A stretch of DNA of 35,512 nucleotides, taken from the NCBI GenBank assembly GCA_024762995.1, contig JANTGI010000016.1, positions 1 through 35,512 on the forward strand. The letters run 5' to 3'. Within the stretch, counting starts at the first letter, position 1. Each line of letters starts with the position of its first letter. Of this stretch, positions 4,206-35,512 are shown piece by piece. This DNA is from Saprospiraceae bacterium (GTDB lineage: Bacteria > Bacteroidota > Bacteroidia > Chitinophagales > Saprospiraceae). The notes beneath the pieces were generated by a model. The model worked only from the letters and a program-made list of their open reading frames with translations. It was not told the origin of the DNA and did no database searches. The translations under genes and the position numbers were made by a program.

Positions 4206-4249
4206 CAAAGCTAAAGGGATAAAGGAAAAGACTAGGTGACAGACATCAC
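4206..4249 (-). promoter_or_regulatory. promoter with Crp/Fnr-type operator upstream of rhodanese gene
   Basis: Read on the minus strand, a perfect GTGA-N6-TCAC palindrome (4249-4236) is followed after 22 nt by TAGCTTTG (4213-4206), an exact Bacteroidota -7 box TAnnTTTG. No TTTG -33 box is present; the palindrome sits about 41 bp upstream of the expected start of transcription, as at class II activator promoters. The gene begins at 4139. The same layout occurs at 5829-5873 and 11063-11107. Confidence 0.72.
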
Positions 4250-4286
4250 AAAAAACAAAAGGTGACCAATTGAATGATCACCTTTC
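4246..4286 (-). terminator. Rho-independent terminator of the MBL-rhodanese gene
   Basis: On the minus strand, AAAGGTGA (4285-4278) pairs with TCACCTTT (4265-4258), with the stem extendable across one mismatch, and is followed by a T-rich run TTGTTTTTTG. It lies about 95 nt after the stop of the MBL-rhodanese gene and just before the operator of the small rhodanese gene, so the two genes appear to be separate transcription units. Confidence 0.72.
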
Positions 4287-4379
4287 GTAAAAACTTCATC
4301 CGGCTTCAAAGTCTATTTTGTACCAAGCTTCGGAGTCCGAATGAGTCCTATTAAATGAAGAATTATCTAGGACATCGCT

Positions 4380-5783
4380 CTAAAGCATAGTTGTCGGGCA
4401 AACATAATCGGAAACCTTAATGTCCGTACGTTTAAGTGCCTTAAAGCCACCACGAATATCTGTTATTTTCTTGATTCCGTTTGCATATAAAATAGAACAA
4501 GCAATCAAAGAACGATAACCGCTAGCACAGTAGATATTATAGCTTTTGGAAGGGCTAAACTTGGCAATATTATCCGGTAACACGTTTAAGGGTACATTTT
4601 CTGCACCAATCACGTGCTCAGAATAGTATTCAGACTCTTTTCGGACATCCACAAGATTCTTCTTGCCTTTCTTTTCAGCAAATTCTGCGGCAGATGTAGA
4701 ATCAAAATTTGCCGTTTTGAAACCCGCAGCTTTCCATGAACGAATACCACCTTTTAAGTACCCTAAGGCATTATCATATCCGACACGTGCCAAACGAGTG
4801 ACCACTTCTTCTTCACGTCCGCGTGGAGCAAGAAAAATTATTTTTTGGTTTAAATCCTTTATCAAAGTACCAATCCAAGTCGCAAAACTTCCATCAATCC
4901 CAAAATACCAAGAACCCGGGATAAACTCTTTGGTGAAAGAACGCTTGCTCCTTGTATCAATAACCAATACATCCTTCTCTTCTGCCAATACCTTAAATTC
5001 TCGAGCAGATAAGGGTCTCATACCGTGAGCAACCACTTCATCAATACTCTTATTGACAGATTTGTTCATTCCTACATTCTTAGGAAAATACTGTGGTGGT
5101 GTCTTTAAACCTGTAGTTACTTCTTTAATAAACTCATCCTTGGTCATGTCCGCACGTAAGGCGTAGTTCACTTCCTTTTGGTGTCCTAAGGTATCCCAAG
5201 TTTCCTTACTCATGTTTTTTCCACAAGCTGAACCCGCTCCATGATTCGGATAAACAACAATATCATCAGGCAAGGTCATAATTTTTTTCCGCAAGGAATT
5301 GTACAAGTGTCCGGCTAAATCGGCCTGCGTCAAATCAGACTTTACCGCAAGGTCAGGGCGACCTACGTCACCGATAAACAAAGCATCTCCGGAAAATACA
5401 TATTTCTCTTTTCCTTTCTTGTCAATCAATACAATCGAGATGGACTCCATCGTATGTCCCGGTGTATGAAGCACCTTCAGCTTAATATCTCCAAGTGGGA
5501 AAATCTCTCCATCCTTGGCATTCTTAATTTTGTACTCCGGCTTGGCATTTGGCCCAAACACAATAGTAGCACCCGTAGCTTTTGCTAAATCAACTTGACC
5601 GGAAACAAAATCCGCATGGAAGTGTGTAAGAAAAATGTACTTTAACTTTACACGGTGTTTTTTGAGAAGCTCTAAGTATGGCTTCGTCTCTCTTAGGGGG
5701 TCAATAATGGCCGCTTCGCCTTTGTCAGCAATGAAATAAGCCATTTCGGCCAAGCAACCCGTAAACAATTGTTCAACTATCAT
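4380..5783 (-). CDS. persulfide dioxygenase-like MBL hydrolase with two rhodanese domains
   Basis: This 467-residue protein begins with a metallo-beta-lactamase fold of the ETHE1/persulfide dioxygenase group, which oxidises glutathione or similar persulfides to sulfite. The metal motif T-H-F-H-A-D-F has His54, His56 and Asp58, and later ligands lie in H-T-P-G-H and F-S-G-D. Two rhodanese domains follow. The first (about 275-365) has lost the active-site Cys (A-P-R-G-R-E-E instead of CxxGxR); the second (about 370-460) keeps it in C-A-S-G-Y-R-S. The ATG at 5783 was chosen, because the longer frame begins inside an operator and adds a non-family tail. It has its own promoter and terminator. Together with the small rhodanese it suggests sulfide detoxification or oxidation. 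Confidence 0.93.
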   Translation of the reverse strand: MIVEQLFTGCLAEMAYFIADKGEAAIIDPLRETKPYLELLKKHRVKLKYIFLTHFHADFVSGQVDLAKATGATIVFGPNAKPEYKIKNAKDGEIFPLGDIKLKVLHTPGHTMESISIVLIDKKGKEKYVFSGDALFIGDVGRPDLAVKSDLTQADLAGHLYNSLRKKIMTLPDDIVVYPNHGAGSACGKNMSKETWDTLGHQKEVNYALRADMTKDEFIKEVTTGLKTPPQYFPKNVGMNKSVNKSIDEVVAHGMRPLSAREFKVLAEEKDVLVIDTRSKRSFTKEFIPGSWYFGIDGSFATWIGTLIKDLNQKIIFLAPRGREEEVVTRLARVGYDNALGYLKGGIRSWKAAGFKTANFDSTSAAEFAEKKGKKNLVDVRKESEYYSEHVIGAENVPLNVLPDNIAKFSPSKSYNIYCASGYRSLIACSILYANGIKKITDIRGGFKALKRTDIKVSDYVCPTTML

Positions 5784-5828
5784 CAGTTTTATTTTTTTTG
5801 TAAACAAATAGGTGATTAAATTCGAATG

Positions 5829-5873
5829 TAAAGATAAGGGAAAAACAAATATATTTTCAGTGATTTCTGTCAC
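5829..5873 (-). promoter_or_regulatory. promoter with Crp/Fnr-type operator upstream of MBL-rhodanese gene
   Basis: On the minus strand, GTGA-N6-TCAC (5873-5860) is followed after 23 nt by TATCTTTA (5836-5829), one base off the TAnnTTTG -7 consensus. The 14-nt palindrome matches the one before the small rhodanese gene at 13 of 14 positions when that site is read on the opposite strand. The start codon is 45 nt downstream of the -7 box. The weak -7 box and absent -33 box fit an activator-dependent promoter (inference). Confidence 0.7.
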
Positions 5874-5975
5874 ACAAAATAAAATTTGGACTCAGAATAC
5901 ATACCGAAATTAAACTAATGTTTTGAAAATCAAGCAATAATAATTCCATTCCATACTAAGCAACTATTCATAACA

Positions 5976-5990
5976 ATCTGATTATCAGAT
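5976..5990. promoter_or_regulatory. 15-nt interrupted palindrome, possible operator
   Basis: ATCTGAT-T-ATCAGAT is a perfect inverted repeat with 7-bp arms and a one-base centre. It lies in the 330-nt gap between the MBL-rhodanese start and the 3' end of the PLP-enzyme gene. No T-run follows on either strand, so it is not a terminator. It could be a binding site for a dimeric regulator, but chance in AT-rich DNA is possible. Confidence 0.35.
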
Positions 5991-6117
5991 AGATATAATA
6001 CTTTTCCATTATATTTTCCCATAAAGACGTGAAAAACAACAGACAAAATAAAAACAAGAAAAAGTTACTCATTTTTTTTCTCTACCAAAAAAAGAGAAGC
6101 GAAAACAAGACTAACAA

Positions 6118-7383
6118 TTATACTTTGTCCAGCGAATTAGAGATGTCCCAAATGATATCATCCGGATTTTCTACACCCACGGACAGTCTAATCAATTTTT
6201 CAGAAATCCCTAACATCGCCCGATCTTCTTCAGAAACATCCACGTGGGTCATGGTCGCCGGATGTTCGACCAGACTCTCTGTACTTCCCAAACTTACAGC
6301 CAACTTAATGATGGTCAAATTATTTAGAAAGGTAAATGCGTCCTTTTCTTTTCCCTTAATATCAAAGGAAATCATAGCGCCCGGCGCCTTACATTGTTCT
6401 TGATAAATAGCAAATTGCTGCGGCTGTGACTCATCCAACAACCCCAAATAATATACTTTTTCTACCTTCGGATGGCCATTCAAAAATTGAGCAATCTTTT
6501 GAGCATTTCGTGTTTGGGTATCCATTCTCACTTTTAGGGTTTCCAAACTACGCATCAAAAGCCATCCTGTCCACGGGCCCGCCATATTGCCCAAAAAAGT
6601 ACGAAGACCACGGATACGAGCCATCAATTCATGGTTGCCCAAAACGGCTCCCGCTATCACATCACTATGTCCGGCAATATACTTTGTCGCCGAATATACC
6701 ACCAAATCCGCTCCATGCTCCATCGGATGTTGCCACAATGGCCCCATGTACGTATTATCTACGGCCAAATACACCGGTGCATCATCTCGCGAAAACCGAT
6801 CCGCTATACGTCGTGCCATGCTCAGATCAAACAAAGCATTGGTGGGATTCGCCGGAGTCTCGATATAGACCAAAGCCAACTGGTCACTATGCCCTGTATC
6901 TTCAACCAATTGAATAATTTCTTGCTCACTCATCTTAGGATGAAAACCGACGGTATGTATCCCAAATCCCTTTAAAATATGATGGATAAAATGATCGGTC
7001 CCGCCATATACCGGCTTACTATGCAACAACAGACTACCCGGCTTTAAAAACTCTAAAAATACCGTAGAAATAGCAGACATCCCACTTTCAAAAACCGCAC
7101 AAGCATCTGCTTTATCCCAAAGCTTTAGCCTTCCTTCCAGAATCTCCAAATCCGGATTATTCAACCGGCTATATATCAATCCCAATTTTTCATTAGGCTT
7201 TTGGTCACGCATACCGTAAGCAATTTCAAAAAATGCTTTCCCTTCTTCTGCTGTGTTAAAAACGAAGGTGGATGTTTGAAAAATAGGACATTTTACTGCT
7301 CCTTCGGACCATTGGGGATTGTAGCCGTAAGACATCATTAAAGTTTCCGGGCTAAATTGTTTTCTCTTGTCGTGATCATCCAT
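6118..7383 (-). CDS. cystathionine gamma-synthase / methionine gamma-lyase family PLP enzyme
   Basis: This 421-residue enzyme belongs to the Cys/Met metabolism PLP family, which forms or breaks C-S bonds in cystathionine, homocysteine or methionine. The PLP lysine is Lys234 in S-A-T-K-Y-I-A-G-H-S-D. Other signatures are Y-S-R-L-N-N-P at the substrate entrance, E-S-G-M-S-A-I before the phosphate pocket, and the Asp that holds the pyridine ring in V-D-N-T-Y. Length and start fit the family, with the ATG at 7383 preceded by a good promoter. Whether it acts as synthase or lyase cannot be settled from sequence. As a lyase it would release thiols or sulfide next to a persulfide-oxidising gene. Confidence 0.92.
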   Translation of the reverse strand: MDDHDKRKQFSPETLMMSYGYNPQWSEGAVKCPIFQTSTFVFNTAEEGKAFFEIAYGMRDQKPNEKLGLIYSRLNNPDLEILEGRLKLWDKADACAVFESGMSAISTVFLEFLKPGSLLLHSKPVYGGTDHFIHHILKGFGIHTVGFHPKMSEQEIIQLVEDTGHSDQLALVYIETPANPTNALFDLSMARRIADRFSRDDAPVYLAVDNTYMGPLWQHPMEHGADLVVYSATKYIAGHSDVIAGAVLGNHELMARIRGLRTFLGNMAGPWTGWLLMRSLETLKVRMDTQTRNAQKIAQFLNGHPKVEKVYYLGLLDESQPQQFAIYQEQCKAPGAMISFDIKGKEKDAFTFLNNLTIIKLAVSLGSTESLVEHPATMTHVDVSEEDRAMLGISEKLIRLSVGVENPDDIIWDISNSLDKV

Positions 7384-7481
7384 GGTTAGTGGCTTTATTT
7401 GGTTAAAAAACAGGCATTACAGGGGCTAAAAGTTTAAAATTAGCATTTTGGACATTTTTTTCTTAATCGCTCAGGCAGTCT

Positions 7482-7514
7482 CAAAGATAGTATTTTTTAA
7501 CCATCGTTGGCAAA
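7482..7514 (-). promoter_or_regulatory. promoter of the PLP-enzyme gene
   Basis: On the minus strand a TTTG -33 box (7514-7511) is followed by a 21-nt spacer and a perfect -7 box TATCTTTG (7489-7482). This predicts a leader of about 95 nt before the start codon at 7383. It is among the most consensus-like promoters in the window and has no GTGA-N6-TCAC site. Confidence 0.7.
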
Positions 7515-7526
7515 TTCCCCCACAAA

Positions 7527-9164
7527 TCATGTCTGAATAACCCCCGGATTAAACCTTTCGATAGGAGCATTATTAGCAGCTTCAATCGTCATGGAAATAA
7601 CCTTTCTTGTCTCTACCGGATCAATAATGGCATCCAACCAAAGTCTAGAAGCGGCATAGTACGGGGTTGTTTGATGGTCATATTTGGATTTTATCTTTTC
7701 GTAGAGTTCATTGGCTTCTTTTTCGGTCGGCTCCGTTCCTTTCTTTTTCATTGAAGAAATTTGGATTTGTTGCAAAACTTTGGCCGCTTGCGCTCCGCCC
7801 ATCACGGCTATTTTGGCCGTGGGCCAACCCACTATGATTCTGGGGTCGTATGCCTTGCCACACATGGCATAATTTCCTGCACCGTAGGAGTTTCCCACGA
7901 CAATAGAAACTTTAGGAACCGTAGAATTAGCCACCGCATTCACCATTTTGGCACCATCCTTAATAATCCCGCCATGCTCCGAGCGACTACCCACCATAAA
8001 TCCCGTTACATCATGCAAAAAAACCAAAGGGATTTTCTTTTGATTACAATTTAAAATAAATCGGGTAGCCTTGTCTGCAGAGTCCGAATAAATCACACCC
8101 CCAAACTGCATTTCTCCCCGACCGTTTTTGACCACGCGGCGATTATTTGCCACGATACCAACCGCCCAGCCATCAATACGGGCATAGCCGCAAATCATCG
8201 TCTTACCATAATCCTTTTTGTACTGCGTAATCTTAGAATCATCCACTATACATTTAATCAACTCCAAAGAATCATAGGGCTTGGCGTGATTTTCCGGAAA
8301 GATTTTGTACAAATCCTTAGGATCCTTTTTCGGAAGAACCGGTTTTTCCCGACTGAAGCCCGCTTTCTCCGTTGCCCCGATTTTATCCATTATATCTTTG
8401 ATTAAGTCCAAAGCTTCTGCATCATCCTTCGCCTTATAGTCCGTCACACCGGAGATTTCGGAATGTGTTTTGGCTCCGCCCAATACCTGCTTATCTATGC
8501 TTTCGCCAATAGCCGCTTTCACCAAATAAGGCCCCGCCAAAAAAATAGTCCCTGTCTTTTCGACAATAATGGCTTCATCCGACATTATCGGAAGATAAGC
8601 CCCACCGGCTACACAACTACCCATTACAGCGGCAATCTGGATGATTCCCTTGCTGGACATCACCGCGTTATTTCGGAAGATACGCCCAAAATGCTCCTTA
8701 TCAGGAAAAATCTCATCCTGCATAGGCAAAAACACCCCCGCACTATCCACCAAATAGATGATAGGCAGTCGATTCTCCATCGCTATTTCCTGCGCCCTTA
8801 AATTCTTCTTTCCCGTAATCGGAAACCAAGCCCCAGCCTTGACCGTCGCATCGTTAGCGACCACTACACATTGGTGCCCTTGCACATATCCTATGACCAC
8901 TACAACACCACCTGCCGGACATCCCCCGTATTCTTCATACATCTCATATCCCGCAAATGCCCCAATCTCCATTGTCGGAGCCCCATCGTCCAACAAATAT
9001 GTCACACGCTCCCGCGCCGTCATCTTACCTTGTTGTCTTTGTTTTTCTAACGCCTTCTTGCCGCCTCCTAGATATATTTTATCTAATCGTTGGTTCATCT
9101 TGGAGATTTTTAGGCGCAAGCTATCATCATTCTTGCTCTGTTCAATGTTTATTTTCTGGTGCAT
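7527..9164 (-). CDS. acyl-CoA carboxylase carboxyltransferase (beta) subunit
   Basis: This 545-residue protein has the paired crotonase-fold carboxyltransferase domains of biotin-dependent acyl-CoA carboxylases (propionyl-, methylcrotonyl- or related CoA). The N-terminal half carries the T-A-R-E-R motif and the glycine-rich oxyanion turn G-S-C-V-A-G-G-A-Y. The C-terminal half carries H-D-V-T-G-F-M-V-G and the second turn G-N-S-Y-G-A-G-N-Y. The ATG at 9164 was chosen; a longer open frame to 9263 adds a Cys-rich tail the family lacks. The biotin carboxylase and carrier subunits are not in this window, so the acyl substrate is unknown. It is transcribed in the same direction as the PLP gene, with 143 nt between them and a separate promoter for the latter. 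Confidence 0.93.
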   Translation of the reverse strand: MHQKINIEQSKNDDSLRLKISKMNQRLDKIYLGGGKKALEKQRQQGKMTARERVTYLLDDGAPTMEIGAFAGYEMYEEYGGCPAGGVVVVIGYVQGHQCVVVANDATVKAGAWFPITGKKNLRAQEIAMENRLPIIYLVDSAGVFLPMQDEIFPDKEHFGRIFRNNAVMSSKGIIQIAAVMGSCVAGGAYLPIMSDEAIIVEKTGTIFLAGPYLVKAAIGESIDKQVLGGAKTHSEISGVTDYKAKDDAEALDLIKDIMDKIGATEKAGFSREKPVLPKKDPKDLYKIFPENHAKPYDSLELIKCIVDDSKITQYKKDYGKTMICGYARIDGWAVGIVANNRRVVKNGRGEMQFGGVIYSDSADKATRFILNCNQKKIPLVFLHDVTGFMVGSRSEHGGIIKDGAKMVNAVANSTVPKVSIVVGNSYGAGNYAMCGKAYDPRIIVGWPTAKIAVMGGAQAAKVLQQIQISSMKKKGTEPTEKEANELYEKIKSKYDHQTTPYYAASRLWLDAIIDPVETRKVISMTIEAANNAPIERFNPGVIQT

Positions 9165-9316
9165 GGTTGTTATCCGTATTATTTGTCCGCAATTTATAGC
9201 TTTTACCGAAAACAATAGGCAGAGACATTGATTTTTTATTGATTTACAGGTATATTTGCGCATACAATTGATGTTATCCCTTCCATCCTTTAAGATTCCC
9301 TACTTAACAAACACAA

Positions 9317-9324
9317 TAACTTTG
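9317..9324 (+). promoter_or_regulatory. -7 box TAACTTTG directly before a start codon
   Basis: TAACTTTG matches TAnnTTTG exactly but ends only 4 nt before the ATG at 9329. If used, transcription would begin at or beside the start codon, giving a leaderless mRNA. No convincing -33 TTTG is seen, so this is tentative. Confidence 0.4.
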
Positions 9325-9328
9325 CTCA

Positions 9329-10507
9329 ATGAGACTACTTTTTCTGTTTCTATTTTTCGGATCTTTTGCTTCTTTACAGGTACCTGTCGTCTCCAATTAC
9401 CCTGATTTTATGGAAGGAATCTCCGAAAATCAACCTACGGCCTTGCGTATGGAGTCAGATTTGATTAGATATGGCGCGATGGTTCATGTGCAAACTTACC
9501 AAGAAGTATTACCCGTTGATGAAGAGCACCTTTTGCTTATCAAAGAGACCTTCGAGTCCTTGCCTCCTACCGTAAAAGTGCCCGATTATCAAGCAAAAGG
9601 AGACTCTTACCTTTGTCTATGCCAAAAGAATGATTTGCTAAAAATTTTAGAAAGATGGAAAGATGGTCAACAAAACATCGATGACTATGCAAAATTTGAC
9701 TGCAAATATCGCAGTTTCACCAATCCGGATGATATGTTTCATGGCGAATCTTTTTGGAAAGAAAAAGACATACTCCAAAAATTAAAACAAAAAAATCAAG
9801 ATACAGAGATTATTTCCCTTTCGGAAAACGTCAAATTTGATATTTTTAAGAATAAAAACAATGCCACCAAAAAAGTCATCAAAGTCATTTTTCCGCTGCC
9901 CATTGAGCACATCGTCAAAGAAGTAGAAGACGAATCCTTTCTTATTTCTGCAAAGAGTGATAACGACCAAGAGCTCTACCAAGGTCTAAGTGTCCAAGGC
10001 TGGAAAAGCTTGTTTCCACAATGGAAGGAATATCAAGAGTTAAATACCGGCTTTTGGGGAAAACCCCGCAAAAAATCCAACATCAAAAACAATCAATACG
10101 CCAAATCTTTTACCATTGCCCCCAATAATACTAAGACATACAACATCAAAGGCCAATCCACCTTCCTTGTCCGAACTAATCAACAAAAAACCAAATCATT
10201 CCAACATCTCACCATCAACCAAAATGGTCGATATATCAAAGGAGAATCATACCTGGATTATGGAGAATATCTACACCATGGCACCACCGGTTTGGCAGGT
10301 GAAGAGCAAAAAATAACCATCGCCTTCGATGCTGCTATCCCGATTTCTTCCATTTCCGTATTTGACGGCAACACAGGCATCCAACTAGGTGAAACCAACG
10401 CCCCACCATTTGAGCTAAACATCCCCAATAAAACCACTGAAATCAACGTAAAAATCACCTATCCAAAACTAAAAAAGGTCCAAATAAATTACTCCACCAT
10501 AAAATAA
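9329..10507 (+). CDS. secreted protein of unknown function
   Basis: This 392-residue protein starts with a short signal peptide (M-R-L-L-F-L-F-L-F-F-G-S-F-A-S-L-Q). The mature part is rich in Lys, Asn and Gln and has no membrane segment. The last 90 residues look like a beta-sandwich, with a segment resembling the predicted Ig-like ends of surface proteins (S-I-S-V-F-D-G-N-T-G-I-Q-L). A clear T9SS sorting domain is not present. No family was recognised. It is divergent from the acyl-CoA carboxylase gene, and its stop codon directly abuts the family A repeat array. The coding status is well supported by length, signal peptide and codon use; the function is unknown. Confidence 0.75.
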   Translation: MRLLFLFLFFGSFASLQVPVVSNYPDFMEGISENQPTALRMESDLIRYGAMVHVQTYQEVLPVDEEHLLLIKETFESLPPTVKVPDYQAKGDSYLCLCQKNDLLKILERWKDGQQNIDDYAKFDCKYRSFTNPDDMFHGESFWKEKDILQKLKQKNQDTEIISLSENVKFDIFKNKNNATKKVIKVIFPLPIEHIVKEVEDESFLISAKSDNDQELYQGLSVQGWKSLFPQWKEYQELNTGFWGKPRKKSNIKNNQYAKSFTIAPNNTKTYNIKGQSTFLVRTNQQKTKSFQHLTINQNGRYIKGESYLDYGEYLHHGTTGLAGEEQKITIAFDAAIPISSISVFDGNTGIQLGETNAPPFELNIPNKTTEINVKITYPKLKKVQINYSTIK

Positions 10508-10725
10508 CCAAAAGCAGCTTGCTGCGCAAAAAAGCAGCTTGCTGCGCAAAAAAGCAGCTTGCTGCGCAAAAAAGCAGCTTGCTGCGCAAAAAAGCAGCTT
10601 GCTGCGCCCCCACCAAAAGCAGCTTGCTGCGCCCCAAAGACCAAAAGCAGCTTGCTGCGCCCCAAAGACCAAAAGCGACGAAGGAGCGCCCCAAAGACCA
10701 AAAGCCCCCCCAAAGACCAAAAAAA
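10508..10725 (+). repeat. family A hairpin repeat array, seven copies
   Basis: Seven copies of GCAGCTTGCTGCGC start at 10514, 10534, 10554, 10574, 10594, 10619 and 10647. The first five have an exact 20-bp period with AAAAAA spacers; the later ones are joined by CCCCAAAGACCAAAA. Degenerate CCCCAAAGACCAAAAGC units continue to about 10725. GCAGC-TT-GCTGC is a 5-bp stem with a 2-nt turn. Period 20 breaks any reading frame and the open frames across it are low-complexity, so it is not coding. It begins one base after the upstream stop codon. Confidence 0.9.
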
Positions 10726-10786
10726 AATCCGCCCACAAAAAAAAGCAGACGGACATTCCAAAATTTCTTACCTCAAAATAGTACCC

Positions 10787-10987
10787 TTACTTCTTATTAG
10801 TATTCGCACCGATGAGACTGTACAAAGGGCAAAAATTCATCACCGCTGTCAATAACGCAATAGCGCCAACAACAACAGCAACAATACCCAAAGTGCCCGT
10901 CAAAATATTGGCATAATAAAGGTAGGCTAGCACTAAAGCTAACACAATTCTAATAATTTTGTCCGTAGAACCTACATTCTTTTTCAT
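10787..10987 (-). CDS. DUF2892 (YgaP-type transmembrane) small membrane protein
   Basis: This 66-residue protein starts M-K-K-N-V-G-S-T-D-K-I-I-R, the characteristic opening of DUF2892. It has two hydrophobic helices (about 13-28 and 33-50), then F-C-P-L-Y-S-L-I-G, another hallmark of the family. In E. coli YgaP this module is fused to a rhodanese domain, and in other bacteria the gene often sits beside rhodanese and MBL persulfide dioxygenase genes. That link is established knowledge. Here the gene lies 5 kb from those genes but has the same operator-promoter layout upstream (11063-11107). It is convergent with the unknown secreted-protein gene across the family A array. Confidence 0.92.
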   Translation of the reverse strand: MKKNVGSTDKIIRIVLALVLAYLYYANILTGTLGIVAVVVGAIALLTAVMNFCPLYSLIGANTNKK

Positions 10988-11062
10988 AATCGTTTTGTTT
11001 ATGGTTATTCAACCGGTTAAAAATTCCATTTAAGGATTCTCGCTTTGAAAGCAATGATACAA

Positions 11063-11107
11063 CAAAAATAACAGATTCCCAAATAAGCCCACCGTGACTT
11101 TTGTTAC
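11063..11107 (-). promoter_or_regulatory. promoter with Crp/Fnr-type operator upstream of DUF2892 gene
   Basis: On the minus strand, GTAAC-AAAA-GTCAC (11107-11094), one base off GTGA-N6-TCAC, is followed after 23 nt by a perfect -7 box TATTTTTG (11070-11063). Operator-to-box spacing equals that of the MBL-rhodanese promoter and is one more than that of the rhodanese promoter. The start codon is about 75 nt downstream. Part of this region abuts the 3' end of the Omp28-like gene. Confidence 0.66.
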
Positions 11108-11118
11108 GTTCCAAAATT

Positions 11119-12153
11119 TTATTCATGTTGAACGACTATTTTTTGCGCAAGCAGACCATCAGGGCTCACCAATTGAACCCAATAAACACCATCTTGAAGC
11201 AAAGAAGCATCCAATTTCTTTGTATGATGACCCAGGGCTCCTTGCGCCCCAAGCTCCCATTCTCGAAGCAATCGCCCGGTCACATCATATAAAACCAATT
11301 CCCCACTAAAAGGTACTGCAAAATCCAAGGAAATAAGAGATTTTCCGGTAACCGGATTAGGAGAAACAGCCAATTTTGCGCCTTTCAACGCCGGAGCCTG
11401 GGTAGAAACTACCAGACCGCTGGTCTCTGTCCCATTAACAAATTCATATTTTAAACCCACTTTCTTCCATAGTACCGTAGATAATCTCAAATGATTAACA
11501 TCCCAGCTATCGGCGATGGGAATAGAAAAATCCATAGAAAAAGAAGTATTCGCTGCAATCGGTCCATTCGCCAAAATCTCACCAAACGCATCGCCTGCCA
11601 TATCGTCTCTCAACACTTTTTCATGGACGGCATTAGCCCCTTGACCGGCTTGATAATTGACGACACCATCTTCTACGACATAGACATTCAAGTAATAAGC
11701 GCCTTCTGCTTGCGCAAAAAAAGTAGCATTCACCGTAACGGAAATTTGATTATTATCGACCGAAATATCTACAGGTATCGCATTGGCTACGGGTGACAAT
11801 CCGGCATTCTGTTGGACGCCCGTTTTAATGGCATTGCGAATCGAAGTGGAAGAGCCCGATTTTTCCACATTGTTTAAATAAAAACGCGGCTGCCCGGATC
11901 CGTCCAAATTTGCTGCAATACCCTGAGTAGTTGCATTCATCAAATCCCCACTATAGTGCATGGCCCATAAAATTGCCTGACTATCATTGTCATCAATCAA
12001 TTGTTCAAATAAGTCCCAACCCCAACCGCCGCAAGGAGGACACCAAGAAGCCGTTTTTTTGATTATTAAGCTGGATTGAGTTTGGGGTACCTCTTGGGCT
12101 TGCGCCAAATAACTAATACCCACTGCTAAAAGAAGGAGTAGAATCTTTTTCAT
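11119..12153 (-). CDS. Omp28-like secreted protein with thioredoxin-type CPPC motif and T9SS sorting domain
   Basis: This 344-residue protein has a signal peptide (M-K-K-I-L-L-L-L-L-A-V-G, cleavage after A-Q-A), then T-A-S-W-C-P-P-C-G-G, the CxxC of the Omp28/thioredoxin-like family, at about residues 35-44. The middle matches the Omp28 layout (V-H-E-K-V-L-R-D). The C-terminal 80 residues form a type A T9SS sorting domain: S-P-N-P-V-T-G near its start, Y-D-V-T-G-R in the middle and G-V-Y-W-V-Q-L near the end. It should cross the outer membrane and be surface-attached or released. A disulfide redox role is possible. It carries three copies of the over-represented GCTTGCGCNAAA word. Confidence 0.9.
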   Translation of the reverse strand: MKKILLLLLAVGISYLAQAQEVPQTQSSLIIKKTASWCPPCGGWGWDLFEQLIDDNDSQAILWAMHYSGDLMNATTQGIAANLDGSGQPRFYLNNVEKSGSSTSIRNAIKTGVQQNAGLSPVANAIPVDISVDNNQISVTVNATFFAQAEGAYYLNVYVVEDGVVNYQAGQGANAVHEKVLRDDMAGDAFGEILANGPIAANTSFSMDFSIPIADSWDVNHLRLSTVLWKKVGLKYEFVNGTETSGLVVSTQAPALKGAKLAVSPNPVTGKSLISLDFAVPFSGELVLYDVTGRLLREWELGAQGALGHHTKKLDASLLQDGVYWVQLVSPDGLLAQKIVVQHE

Positions 12154-12204: not shown

Positions 12205-12846
12205 CTAGAGCAAGGTAATCTGTCCTCTAGCCAACAAAACCAGCTTTTCTTTCTCAAATTGTTTCAATAATCTGGAGATAACCTCCCGGGATGTCGCCAA
12301 ATCTCTTGCGATTTCGTTATGGGAGATTTTGAGCATGGTACTACCAACCGTCGCTGAGCGTTGCTGCAAATACCTCATTAAGCGTTCGTCCAAATGATGA
12401 AAAATAACCCCTTCAAAAGCCTGAATCAGTTCATTAAACCGCATTCCAAAGGTCTCAAAAACAAAATTATACCATGACGGATACTTTTTATTGACCGAAT
12501 ACAGCGAATCAGCAGACAAAGCCATCAAACCCGTATTTTCAAGGGCGACGGCTTTTATTTCACTTTTCCCCTGTTTGATAGATGATGCCAAGGTCATGGC
12601 ACAAGATTGCCCCGGCTTGATATAATACAAAAAAGCCTCCCGGGCATCATCGTCTTCACGAAACACCTTTACCGATCCCGAGACCACTAAAGGTATCACT
12701 TTGATATAATCACCGACATTAAGGATAACTGTCCCTTTGGGGACTTCGACATAGCGACTATTTTGAGCAATAGTCTCTATTAATTCAAATTGTTGAAAAA
12801 CCGGAAAATTACTCCGCAAAGCTTTAGTTTTGGCCTGAAAATCCAT
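12205..12846 (-). CDS. Crp/Fnr family transcriptional regulator (second of a pair)
   Basis: This 213-residue protein has an N-terminal cyclic-nucleotide-binding-like beta barrel (about 20-135) and a C-terminal winged helix. The recognition helix T-S-R-E-V-I-S-R has Arg, Glu and Arg in the positions that E. coli CRP uses (Arg180, Glu181, Arg185) to read GTGA. The barrel has G-Q-S-C-A-M-T-L where CRP binds cAMP; this S-C-A/S-M version is usual in Bacteroidota regulators and argues against simple cAMP binding. There is no Fnr iron-sulfur cysteine cluster at the N-terminus. Its start lies 23 nt inside the end of the upstream paralogue, so the two are probably co-transcribed and coupled. Confidence 0.93.
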   Translation of the reverse strand: MDFQAKTKALRSNFPVFQQFELIETIAQNSRYVEVPKGTVILNVGDYIKVIPLVVSGSVKVFREDDDAREAFLYYIKPGQSCAMTLASSIKQGKSEIKAVALENTGLMALSADSLYSVNKKYPSWYNFVFETFGMRFNELIQAFEGVIFHHLDERLMRYLQQRSATVGSTMLKISHNEIARDLATSREVISRLLKQFEKEKLVLLARGQITLL

Positions 12847-13498
12847 TCGTAGGAACTAGTAGAGTTATTTTATTGCGACCAATAGTCAATATTTCTTGCT
12901 TCTCCAGTTTTTTCAACAACCTAGATATTGCTTCCCTCGAAGCATTCAGGTCTTGCGCAATCTCTTGATGAGTAGAAAAAATAGTCGTATCACCGATGGC
13001 CTTTGACTTTCTATTTAAGTAATTAAGGAGTCGCTCATCCATTTTTAAGAAAGCAATCTCGTCAATGGTTTGGATGAGTTCCATCATTCGGGAATCATAA
13101 GACTTCATCACAAAGTTTTTCCAAGAATGAAACTTCATCATCCATTCATCTACAAATCGAATCGGAATGCCTATCAATTCCACATCTTCCACCACCTTGG
13201 TTCTCACCTCGCTCTTTTTGTGCATCATACAACACGAAAAAGCCATAGAACATGAATCTCCGGCATGCAAATAATAAAGAAAAATTTCATTCCCGTGATC
13301 ATCCTCCCGCAAAACCTTCAAAGTCCCTTTGCTGATAAGGGGCACAAACTTCACATAAGAGCCGATTTCTTGGGTCACATCTCCCCTTTTAAAATGCTTA
13401 ATCATCCCCTCTTGACAAATCGCATCTTGCAGCGGAATCTCCGCCAGTTGATGAAATTGTTTGTTTAATATCGCCTGAATTTTTTCTTTTTTGAGCAT
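12824..13498 (-). CDS. Crp/Fnr family transcriptional regulator (first of a pair)
   Basis: This 224-residue paralogue of the next gene has the same effector barrel and winged helix. Its recognition helix A-S-R-E-A-I-S-R again keeps the CRP residues that contact GTGA. The barrel motif is G-D-S-C-S-M-A-F-S-C-C-M, with three cysteines close together, which could sense thiols, persulfides or redox state (inference). The ATG at 13498 was chosen; the frame can be extended to a TTG at 13528, adding ten residues. It overlaps the downstream regulator by 23 nt. It is the natural candidate to bind the GTGA-N6-TCAC operators upstream of the rhodanese, MBL-rhodanese and DUF2892 genes. Confidence 0.93.
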   Translation of the reverse strand: MLKKEKIQAILNKQFHQLAEIPLQDAICQEGMIKHFKRGDVTQEIGSYVKFVPLISKGTLKVLREDDHGNEIFLYYLHAGDSCSMAFSCCMMHKKSEVRTKVVEDVELIGIPIRFVDEWMMKFHSWKNFVMKSYDSRMMELIQTIDEIAFLKMDERLLNYLNRKSKAIGDTTIFSTHQEIAQDLNASREAISRLLKKLEKQEILTIGRNKITLLVPTNGFSGQN

Positions 13499-13573
13499 CT
13501 CCCATTTTTTGAACTGGTAAATATACAACTTATATTATTCTTTGCAGAAAAAAACCATAAATATTTGCCCCAT

Positions 13574-13695: not shown

Positions 13696-13769
13696 GGCTC
13701 CGTAGCTCAACTGGATAGAGTACCTGACTACGGATCAGGAGGTTGCAGGTTCGAACCCTGCCGGGGTCA
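13696..13769 (+). tRNA. tRNA-Arg (anticodon ACG)
   Basis: The 74-nt cloverleaf closes fully. The acceptor stem pairs GGCTCCG with CGGGGTC (two G-U pairs), the D arm is GCTC-AACTGGATA-GAGT, the anticodon arm is CCTGA-CTACGGA-TCAGG with anticodon ACG, and the T arm is GCAGG-TTCGAAC-CCTGC. The discriminator is A and CCA is not encoded. ACG would be edited to ICG to read CGU/CGC/CGA. It lies 69 nt before rpmB and may share its transcript. Confidence 0.97.
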
Positions 13770-13838
13770 CAAAGATGGAAACACAAAGATAGCCGCAAGC
13801 ATTTTTGTAATTCACAACTAAGACAAAAAAAGTAGAAA

Positions 13839-15637: not shown

Positions 15638-15705
15638 TCATTCTTGACAAATCTAGCACTGAAAAGCCAGAGCTAATCCTTATCATCAGCAAATAACCAG
15701 CCCTA

Positions 15706-15972
15706 TCAAAAGCAGCTTGCTGCGCCCAAAAAGCAACTTGTTGCGCCCAAAAAGCAACTTGTTGCACCAAAAAAGCAGCTTGCTGCGCACCAAAAAGCAG
15801 CTTGCTGCGTCAAAAAAGCAACTTGTTGCACCAAAAAGCAGCTTGCTGCGCCCCAAAAAGCAGCTTGCTGCGTCTAAAACGCGCCCTCCAAAAGCAGCTT
15901 GCTGCGCCCCAAAGACCAAAAGCGACCGCAGGGAGCGCCCCAAAGACCAAAAGACAGCGCACCAAAGACCCA
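15706..15972 (+). repeat. family A hairpin repeat array, nine copies, two stem versions
   Basis: Six copies of GCAGCTTGCTGC start at 15712, 15775, 15797, 15838, 15860 and 15894. Three copies of GCAACTTGTTGC start at 15733, 15754 and 15818. The second version changes both sides of the stem (GCAGC/GCTGC to GCAAC/GTTGC), preserving pairing. The spacers are C/A-rich (CCCAAAAA, ACCAAAAA) and the tail has CCCCAAAGACCAAAAG units. It fills the ftsY to Fe-S gene gap and is noncoding. Confidence 0.9.
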
Positions 15973-15987
15973 AAAAATACCGTTCAT

Positions 15988-15995
15988 TATATTTG
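15988..15995 (+). promoter_or_regulatory. -7 box of the Fe-S protein operon
   Basis: TATATTTG matches TAnnTTTG exactly, directly after the family A array and 51 nt before the ATG at 16047. No clear -33 TTTG lies at the expected distance. Confidence 0.55.
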
Positions 15996-16046
15996 CCTAA
16001 GAAATCCCTAATCACTACCTTGCGAGCTCAATCAACCACGTGAAAG

Positions 16047-21398: not shown

Positions 21399-21487
21399 AG
21401 CCACTAAAACGCTAAAAAACCAAATAAGGTTGAATCCCAAAAAAGAATTAAATCAGGATTAACAAGGCAAAAAAGGTCCCTGTTTAG

Positions 21488-21668
21488 GCAATTGAACCTG
21501 CCCGCCTGCAGGCGGGCGTCCGAAGGACAAACTAAACGTCCGAAGGACAAACTGAACCTGCCCGTTGCAGGCGGGCGTCCAAAGGACAAACTGAACCTGC
21601 CCGTTGCAGGCGGGCGTCCGAAGGACAAACTGAACCTGCCCGTTGCAGGCGGGCGTCCGAAGGACAAA
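21488..21668 (-). repeat. family B double-hairpin repeat array, 39-bp period
   Basis: Units starting GAACCTGCCCG lie at 21494, 21554, 21593 and 21632, the last three at an exact 39-bp period; a truncated unit lies between the first two. Each holds a GC-rich hairpin (CCTGCCCGTTGCAGGCGGGC) and a small GTCC-GAA-GGAC hairpin. The first copy contains the perfect 18-bp palindrome GCCCGCCTGCAGGCGGGC (21500-21517). Period 39 keeps a frame open, but the predicted peptide is a meaningless 13-residue repeat. It ends 2 nt from the stop of the 675-residue T9SS gene. Confidence 0.88.
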
Positions 21669-34770: not shown

Positions 34771-35512
34771 ATGACGAACAGTACTAAGCTACTGCTAAGC
34801 CTATTTTTTTTGGCGTTGAATCATAGTATTCAGGCCCAATTAAATGTGATTAGCGCCGGCGGCACTTCCTTCACCCCCGAAGAGCTCATCACCAATGTTT
34901 TTCTAGGTGAAGGGGTCACAGTAACGAATATCACTTACGCCGGCAATCCCACCCAGGTGGGTTATTTTAACGGAGCCGTTGCGGACATCGGGCTAGATCG
35001 CGGTATTGTCATGACCACCGGTCAAGCGGCAGATGCTGCCGGACCACAATCTGACCTACCTAGTAGTATGGCCGGTACCAGCAACACAGACCCCGATTTA
35101 GTGACCATCGGTCAAGTCATCCAACCGGGCGCCGATGTGAATGATGTCGCTGTTTATGAAATCACCTTTATTCCGGTAGCGGACACATTGAGATTTAGAT
35201 ATGTTTTTGCTTCCGAAGAATATCCGGAGTATGTTTGCACCCAGTTTAATGATGTTTTTGGCTTCTTTATTTCCGGGCCCGGCATCAGTGGCGCTTATTC
35301 TAATTCTTCCGAAAATATCGCTCTAATCCCTGACCCTAGTGATCCGACCGGACTTACATTTACTACGGACCCTGTATCAATTAGCAATGTCAATAACGGC
35401 AATCCCAACAATACCGGATGTGTGCCCAGCTACCCCATGTATTATAATGACAACGAAGGCAGCCTAAATCTAGCCTATGACGGATATACCCACGTTTTTA
35501 CTGCGCAAGCGA
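34771..35512 (+). CDS. choice-of-anchor L domain secreted protein, 5' part
   Basis: The gene runs off the window end; 247 codons are visible. A signal peptide (M-T-N-S-T-K-L-L-L-S-L-F-F-L-A, cleavage after I-Q-A-Q) is followed by the choice-of-anchor L domain: T-N-V-F-L-G-E-G-V-T-V-T-N-I-T-Y near residue 40, G-I-V-M-T-T-G near residue 80, and F-R-Y-V-F-A-S-E-E-Y-P-E-Y near residue 145, followed by D-V-F-G-F-F-I-S-G-P-G. Such proteins are large surface proteins, often with repeated adhesion domains and a C-terminal T9SS or other anchor, which would lie outside this window. The function is probably in adhesion or surface structure (inference). Confidence 0.93.
   Translation, partial: MTNSTKLLLSLFFLALNHSIQAQLNVISAGGTSFTPEELITNVFLGEGVTVTNITYAGNPTQVGYFNGAVADIGLDRGIVMTTGQAADAAGPQSDLPSSMAGTSNTDPDLVTIGQVIQPGADVNDVAVYEITFIPVADTLRFRYVFASEEYPEYVCTQFNDVFGFFISGPGISGAYSNSSENIALIPDPSDPTGLTFTTDPVSISNVNNGNPNNTGCVPSYPMYYNDNEGSLNLAYDGYTHVFTAQA

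Follow-up and report, generated by a model that had tools for sequence, protein, structure and literature searches.

Three sulfur-linked genes on a contig of a Saprospiraceae bacterium raise the question of whether they answer to a common regulator, through what kind of promoter, and to which signal. The contig analysed here, in full and hereafter called the window, is 35,512 nucleotides (nt) long and is contig 16 of a genome of 3.68 Mb in 241 contigs. Its genes for a rhodanese, for a persulfide dioxygenase (PDO) fused to two rhodanese domains and for a YgaP-like transmembrane protein (YgaP-TM) are each preceded by a Crp/Fnr-type palindrome at a fixed distance from a -7 box. We consider it highly probable that the three promoters belong to a persulfide or sulfur regulon under Crp/Fnr class II activation from GTGAY-N4-RTCAC operators near -41.5, with persulfide or sulfide as the most likely signal. 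Operators, spacing, target classes, regulator linkage and cysteine conservation were computed.

Three promoters with one layout

The layout had been noticed in a first-pass annotation, and the positions given there for the three palindromes and the three -7 boxes are all correct: on the minus strand the promoters read GTGATGTCTGTCAC-N22-TAGCTTTG (rhodanese), GTGACAGAAATCAC-N23-TATCTTTA (PDO-rhodanese) and GTAACAAAAGTCAC-N23-TATTTTTG (YgaP-TM) (Table 1). The gene identities also agree with domain searches, which found PF00581 in the rhodanese, a metallo-β-lactamase (MBL) domain with two rhodanese domains in the PDO protein, and PF11127 (YgaP-like TM, taken as the annotation's DUF2892) in the third. 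The statement, made by eye, that the window contains no further perfect GTGA-N6-TCAC holds as well: only the operators of the rhodanese and PDO genes are perfect, that of the YgaP-TM gene is imperfect, and a fourth, imperfect match at 34921 (GTAACGAATATCAC) lacks any box at 18-26 nt. Simulating the window 300 times with a first-order Markov model gave 0 occurrences of the layout, and 2 strict palindromes were observed where 0.27 are expected. Chance does not explain the three window layouts.

In the promoters of close relatives the operators have been kept while the flanks diverged. At the position of the rhodanese operator, relatives G001 and G004 read GTAACGTTTATCAC and GTGACTAGCATCAC, and the YgaP-TM operator is identical in three genomes (the window and loci L088 and L089), with less conserved flanks. 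The GTG listed as the start of the PDO gene, at 5873, falls inside the operator and is an improbable start; the alignments of PDO homologues begin at the Met at 5783.

Table 1 Features of the window and layout matches elsewhere in the same genome (aa, amino acids).
Feature	Position	Strand	Remark
Rhodanese, single domain, 92 aa	3861..4139	-	PF00581 (6.4e-15)
-7 box of rhodanese gene	4206..4213	-	TAGCTTTG; 22 nt from operator
Operator of rhodanese gene	4236..4249	-	GTGATGTCTGTCAC; pattern search
PDO (MBL fold) fused to two rhodanese domains, 467 aa	4380..5783	-	PF00753 (1.7e-16), PF00581 (5.4e-26)
-7 box of PDO-rhodanese gene	5829..5836	-	TATCTTTA; 23 nt from operator
Operator of PDO-rhodanese gene	5860..5873	-	GTGACAGAAATCAC; pattern search
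YgaP-like transmembrane protein, 66 aa	10787..10987	-	PF11127 (1.4e-22)
-7 box of YgaP-TM gene	11063..11070	-	TATTTTTG; 23 nt from operator
Operator of YgaP-TM gene	11094..11107	-	GTAACAAAAGTCAC; pattern search
CrpA, Crp/Fnr regulator	12205..12846	-	PF13545, PF00027, PF00325; one effector-loop cysteine; recognition helix SREVISRLL
CrpB, Crp/Fnr regulator	12824..13528	-	PF13545, PF00325, PF00027 below cut-off; effector-loop C-X5-CC; recognition helix SREAISRLL
Omp28-like secreted protein with type IX sorting domain	11119..12153		PF11551, PF18962
tRNA-Arg (ACG)	13696..13770	+	upstream of crpB
Transmembrane rhodanese gene	contig C7		sulfur/thiol match; divergent from Sulf_transp (YeeE-type) gene
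Rhodanese gene	contig C23		sulfur/thiol match; downstream of layout
LysE-type transporter	contig C23		recurrent family; divergent from rhodanese, palindrome common to both
Rhodanese, then small membrane protein	contig C67		sulfur/thiol match
Porin_O_P gene, then rhodanese	contig C87		sulfur/thiol match
Protein with thioredoxin domains	contig C10		sulfur/thiol match
Small membrane protein	contig C6		family recurring behind sites in relatives
Multihaem cytochrome	contig C111		recurrent family

Recurrence of the layout in the genome and in relatives

The bare palindrome is not enriched in the genome: GTGA-N6-TCAC is found 20 times and its reversed control 30 times, and an enrichment of the palindrome as such was rejected. 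Enrichment appears only in combination with the -7 box. GTGA-N6-TYAC with a TAnnTTT box at 21-24 nt matches 10 times (control, 3) and GTAA-N6-TCAC with the same box 5 times (control, 2); moreover, of the 13 TAnnTTT boxes located 5-45 nt to either side of the 20 strict palindromes, 8 sit at 22-23 nt. The genome-wide search with a count of sulfur genes downstream, which had been proposed as a check, came out as predicted. Eight of the 15 matches, comprising the three window promoters and sites on contigs C7, C23, C67, C87 and C10, lie upstream of rhodanese, PDO, YgaP-TM or thioredoxin-domain genes; another three stand before families seen repeatedly at such sites in relatives, and four (C21, whose gene lies off the contig, C46, C116 and C143) belong to neither group. 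A strict palindrome on C6 (position 48437) lies upstream of two rhodanese domains and has a one-mismatch box, CAACTTTG, exactly 22 nt away. Behind the match on C143 (L028) and a match in relative G001 (L197) stands seemingly the same uncharacterized protein family (QKIDTLK.VQ.LNQ, by eye), which may be a further target.

For a wider comparison, 119 genomes were used, namely the window's own and relatives of its family and order. GTGAY-N4-RTCAC-N22/23-TAnnTTTG occurs at 141 sites in 50 of them, versus 2 for the reversed pattern. We fetched 137 of these sites, leaving out two of G031, one of G110 and one of G096. The downstream open reading frame (ORF) was sought within 260 nt if it encoded at least 60 aa and otherwise within 450 nt, a rule that still picks the second gene of an operon in some rows. 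Seven sites had no ORF of at least 60 aa, and the Pfam scan took 130 downstream proteins. Rhodanese domains are by far the most frequent among these (37; by comparison, the entire own genome holds 18), followed by MBL (13), SulP (12), STAS (11), YgaP-TM (7), AhpC/TSA (7), thioredoxin (6), pyridine-nucleotide-disulphide oxidoreductase (6) and, with three each, Sulf_transp, LysE, DUF983 and FA_hydroxylase. Sorted by class, the 137 sites precede genes for rhodaneses (24), PDO (13), SulP (12), YgaP-TM (8), the small membrane protein (7), thioredoxin (6), thioredoxin reductase (5), LysE (4), YeeE (3), peroxiredoxin (2), multihaem cytochrome (2), Crp (2) and other proteins (42), or no ORF (7). Sulfur or thiol genes thus stand behind 73 of the 137 sites, as expected of a sulfur regulon, and recurrent families of unknown role behind 13 more. 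The proposal of a Crp/Fnr-controlled sulfur regulon gains support from this recurrence of the layout before the same families, with operators kept and flanks diverged.

The small membrane protein, of 70-84 aa, carries a motif like LTLGLAPFxPEPHIxGKxRWxxGGAxGM at its seven sites (L040:17-268, on contig 6 of the own genome, G000; L181, L188, L194, L227, L248 and L250). The L040 protein matched no Pfam or NCBIfam model. It is possible that this family is a new regulon member of unknown function.

Details of the palindrome were considered as a code for target class. At positions 5 and 10 there is no difference between sulfur and other sites, and the idea was rejected there; the eight YgaP-TM sites favour GTGAC-N4-GTCAC. 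A TTGTCAC end, a pattern noticed post hoc, is found at 6 of 10 sites before hemN-like, feoA, DUF983 or hydroxylase genes versus 4 of 78 sites before sulfur genes or recurrent families. The ten sites in question (L157, L229, L198, L230, L145, L236, L241, L143, L207 and L209) probably form a separate FNR-type regulon.

Promoters of persulfide dioxygenase genes

PDO promoters were also chosen by homology, irrespective of any motif. PDO homologues occur in 107 of the 119 genomes (E up to 1e-60), and 30 were examined as loci, the window's own included. A GTRA-N6-TYAC palindrome lies within 350 nt of the start in 18 of the 30, where about 0.5 would be expected in 30 such regions at the rate of the window simulation. 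The full layout is present in 13, always at 22 or 23 nt: over the range of 5-44 nt, the box spacings were 22 (10 cases), 23 (3), 6 (1) and 35 (1). The five loci with a palindrome and no exact box include two with one mismatch at 22 nt (L083, L087), one with two mismatches at 22 nt (L086) and one with one mismatch at 23 nt (L073); L080 has no visible box.

The same spacing of 22-23 nt thus holds in the window, in the own genome, at the PDO loci and in the relatives, as in class II promoters, where the distance from operator to core promoter is fixed. A fixed distance suggests an activator that touches RNA polymerase, since a repressor would not need one, and the class II position of about -41.5 put forward in the first-pass annotation fits such a contact. 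The value of -41.5 itself assumes a transcription start about 5 nt past the box, the usual distance after TAnnTTTG. A -33 TTG element in the spacer was rejected as a further promoter feature: no TTG peak was seen, no gap from 0 to 18 having a TTG in more than 5 of 93 N22 sites, in a test limited by the operator, which fills the rest.

Candidate regulators

The likely regulators of the three promoters are encoded in the window itself, by the overlapping genes crpB and crpA (overlap 12824-12846). The start listed for crpB is a TTG; a start at the Met at 13498 is more likely. Both proteins belong to the Crp/Fnr superfamily, which combines a cyclic-nucleotide-binding fold with a winged helix: PF13545 and PF00325 score over the cut-off in both, PF00027 scores over it in CrpA and below it in CrpB, and the predicted fold of CrpB matches Crp/Fnr structures. 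The genome has six HTH_Crp_2 proteins; an R-E-x-x-S-R recognition helix is present in the two encoded in the window and absent from the other four. In Escherichia coli CRP, an R-E..R helix reads GTGA, and the CRP helix SRETVGR aligns with that of the window proteins.

Gene neighbourhoods link regulators of this kind to the targets. CrpB-like genes occur in 90 of the 119 genomes (E up to 1e-25, with CrpA-type proteins among the matches); a search with CrpB for related loci among named relatives gave 4 loci. Distances were taken at 37 Crp places, chosen by eye, with a PDO gene on the same contig. A CrpB-like gene lies no more than 10 kb from a PDO gene in at least 33 of the 90 genomes, and at least 25 such genes lie within 3 kb, where a chance expectation estimated from genome sizes is about 1%. 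The number of sites rises with the closeness of the best CrpB match (rho 0.74 in 72 family genomes, 0.61 in all 119). The contrast persists outside the window's own genus, where the mean is 3.0 sites in the 27 genomes that have CrpB close by and 0.5 in the 40 that do not.

At L088 the gene order is crpB, crpA, operator, YgaP-TM, and only about 120 nt lie where, in the window, the Omp28-like protein with its sorting domain separates crpA from the YgaP-TM operator. A second Crp type, nearer to CrpA, adjoins a YgaP-TM gene and an operator in seven relatives, standing before the operator in six and after YgaP-TM in L203. A CrpA-like gene and a YgaP-TM gene may therefore form a dedicated regulator-target pair, judging from gene order. 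The operator at these loci (L160, L178, L184, L203, L208, L213 and L223) shares the YgaP-TM preference noted above. Autoregulation of crpB through the palindrome was also considered and was not borne out by the 310 nt upstream of the gene in the window, yet 2 of the 137 sites in relatives precede Crp genes.

The effector loop

In CRP, the loop that corresponds to the cysteine loop of these proteins contacts cyclic AMP (cAMP), and cAMP-dependent CRP is marked by a phosphate-binding cassette with Gly-Glu and Arg-Ser. The window proteins differ from this pattern. In alignments of CrpB with CRP and of CrpA with Vfr the Gly-Glu of the cassette is unmatched, with a cysteine standing just before it; in the former, Arg-Ser is opposite Lys-Lys, with a Ser one place on. 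The NCBIfam CRP model, which has a cut-off of 266 bits, gives the two proteins 54 and 48.

Cysteines were counted in 51 of 53 Crp-like sequences (L037 and L091 were left out as distant). One loop cysteine is invariant (51/51). CrpB types have a CC pair five residues on, with the second and third cysteines present in 38 of 39 and 36 of 39 sequences, respectively; the corresponding counts are 0/5 for CrpA types, and 0/7 and 1/7 for the YgaP-linked types. FNR-type proteins are characterized by four conserved cysteines that bind a 4Fe-4S cluster, and the number here is one in all 51 sequences and three in nearly all CrpB types, other ligands being possible. The predicted structure of CrpB has the Crp fold with a mean confidence score (pLDDT) of 74.5, falling below 50 at residues 95-106.

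Conserved cysteines would suit a sensor of reactive sulfur species, whose DNA binding would presumably depend on persulfidation. We propose, tentatively, that the CrpB types may be persulfide (sulfane sulfur) sensors of Crp/Fnr fold, in which the cAMP cassette has been replaced by a C-X5-CC thiol switch, and that together with a one-cysteine CrpA-type partner tied to YgaP-TM they may govern the detoxification of sulfur in Saprospiraceae and in part of the surrounding class. Persulfide is suggested as the signal by the targets and the cysteines.

Proposed mechanism and alternatives

In the scheme that we infer as regards binding, activation, transcription start, signal and which of CrpA and CrpB acts where, a Crp/Fnr dimer (CrpB, CrpA or both) would bind GTGAY-N4-RTCAC centred near -41.5 and recruit RNA polymerase to the Bacteroidota promoter known by its -7 box TAnnTTTG. 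The signal, most likely persulfide or sulfide, would be read by the cysteines in the loop that contacts cAMP in CRP. Activation would switch on PDO, rhodaneses and the YgaP-type membrane protein and, elsewhere in the genome and in relatives, sulfur-compound transporters, thioredoxin, thioredoxin reductase and peroxiredoxin. In the resulting pathway, sulfur compounds would enter via YeeE, rhodaneses and YgaP-TM would pass on persulfide sulfur, PDO would oxidize it to sulfite, SulP would move anions, and thioredoxin, its reductase and peroxiredoxin would clear persulfides.

Several observations speak against this scheme or narrow it. Of the 137 sites, 49 precede other genes (42) or no ORF (7), and the former include feoA (FeoA domain), DUF983, fatty-acid-hydroxylase and FAD-binding monooxygenase-like genes as well as two radical-SAM proteins resembling hemN, in one of which HemN_C appears, only below the cut-off. 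A different, FNR-type, Crp/Fnr regulon with a near-identical operator thus seems to share the motif. Unrelated genes with the same layout, named in the first-pass annotation as an objection, do exist, and the motif is not exclusive to sulfur genes. What the layout marks in the group are Crp/Fnr class II promoters, and those of the sulfur regulon make up their largest recognised share. Conservation is likewise partial. Orthologous upstream regions keep the operator in close relatives, as had been anticipated, but the exact layout is missing from 17 of the 30 PDO upstream regions, 12 of which have no palindrome in 350 nt (248 nt in L074); in 7 of these 12 a same-strand ORF ends within 200 nt upstream, so that an operon may or may not exist. 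The layout is rare in the phylum as sampled, with 42 of 345 genomes having it (control, 1 match): 30 of the 85 that belong to the class, counting family and order, and 12 of the 260 from elsewhere. The sample yielded a list of 61 sites; among the 28 loci whose downstream genes were viewed (L269-L296), some are again upstream of PDO, SulP, thioredoxin or peroxiredoxin genes, and in eight genomes of one other family of the class (L285-L292) the layout precedes an unrelated secreted or outer-membrane-like protein. Kinship has not been removed from the correlation of site number with the closeness of CrpB. The 310 nt upstream of crpB in the window contain no palindrome, and of the predicted structure the effector loop is modelled with the least certainty, too little for cysteine distances. 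Finally, 3dv8, a solved Crp/Fnr structure from Eubacterium rectale, shares two of the cysteines without a known sulfur tie, so the loop motif is not peculiar to this group. The operators at L285-L292 are GTGACTTTTATCAC (6) or GTGACTTTAGTCAC (2), all with N23.

As an alternative, the regulator would bind the same class II operators but sense oxygen, nitric oxide or general redox state, like FNR or HcpR, with the sulfur genes only part of a micro-oxic or nitrosative programme. The feoA, DUF983, hemN-like and fatty-acid-hydroxylase genes behind sites in relatives point that way, hemN and feoA being typical FNR-type targets; FNR and HcpR are among the matches to the predicted fold, along with CRP, and three cysteines with a further ligand could hold an iron-sulfur cluster. 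In the own genome, however, sulfur or thiol genes account for 8 of 15 matches and none of the 14 visible downstream genes (that of C21 being off its contig) resembles hemN or feoA. Of the three cysteines, CrpA and the YgaP-linked Crp proteins have only one, except for a single YgaP-linked protein with two, and the TTGTCAC end, with the reserve due to a post hoc pattern, suggests a separate regulator for the hemN/feoA-like genes. We regard this alternative as unlikely, if deserving of attention. Ordinary cAMP-CRP control, placing the sulfur genes within a carbon-starvation response, would agree with the GTGA/TCAC half-sites and the CRP-like recognition helix, but the unmatched Gly-Glu with a cysteine just before it and the low scores against the NCBIfam CRP model make it very improbable.

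A repressor released by sulfide would resemble the ArsR- and CsoR-type persulfide sensors, and CstR, SqrR and BigR, which are among the named sensors of reactive sulfur, are repressors according to the accessible part of PMC9774590. Repressors act from many positions, however, whereas 13 of the 15 box matches in the PDO set lie at 22 or 23 nt, and the spacer has no TTG peak for a -33 element, within the limits of that test. Crp/Fnr proteins bound at -41.5 activate as a rule, and we judge repression improbable. As for a coincidence of a common CRP-like palindrome with common AT-rich boxes, it would be in keeping with the lack of enrichment of bare GTGA-N6-TCAC, but is already contradicted by the counts (141 sites versus 2), by the non-random downstream functions and by the fixed spacing, which leave it practically no probability.

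Relation to known systems

The proposed sulfur regulon resembles the class II promoters of E. coli CRP, whose operator also lies near -41.5, in its GTGA-N6-TCAC operator, in the Crp fold and in the R-E-x-x-x-R helix. It differs in that the cAMP cassette residues are unmatched and a loop cysteine is found instead, in the Bacteroidota -7 box that takes the place of the sigma-70 -10 element, and in its sulfur gene targets. By sequence, 3dv8 is the best solved match to both window proteins (4.8e-17 and 6.4e-22); it is also the best by fold, and its cysteines align with the first two of the CrpB loop; it is titled a putative regulator, with no function given, and has 25% identity. HcpR of Porphyromonas gingivalis (9day), known for its role in nitrosative stress, is likewise a Bacteroidota Crp/Fnr protein, at rank 22 of the fold matches, but with 16% identity.

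Sensors of reactive sulfur named in the accessible part of PMC9774590 are CstR, SqrR, BigR, PigS and FisR, the last an activator with three conserved cysteines. CstR, SqrR, BigR and FisR are like the proposed system in responding to reactive sulfur, in controlling sulfide-handling genes and in being thiol-based, but they belong to the CsoR, ArsR and Fis families, and that part of the source names no Crp/Fnr protein among such sensors. The sHdrR and SoxR proteins of Hyphomicrobium denitrificans are ArsR-type, with a fold other than that of Crp/Fnr, in the accessible part of PMC12423496. We found no published account of a Crp/Fnr sulfur regulon in Bacteroidota, in line with the first-pass annotation; the search was judged from titles and the beginnings of abstracts, with most subscription journals and preprints outside its scope, and is weak evidence of absence.

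More broadly, the searchable literature yielded no account of how reduced sulfur is sensed and controlled in Bacteroidota. Members of this phylum are abundant heterotrophs in many habitats. With an operator, a fixed geometry, a list of targets and a candidate sensor, sulfur control in these organisms becomes directly testable, and the layout provides a class II activator geometry for the phylum's unusual TAnnTTTG promoter. If the reading of the cysteines is true, it would add a new protein fold to reactive-sulfur sensing, with a nucleotide pocket rebuilt as a thiol switch.

Other features of the window

Apart from the tRNA gene listed in Table 1, short repeats (AAAGCAGCTTGCTGCGC and similar) were noticed by eye, in the sequence and its mechanically called ORFs, at 10510-10680, 15700-16000 and 21404-21667.

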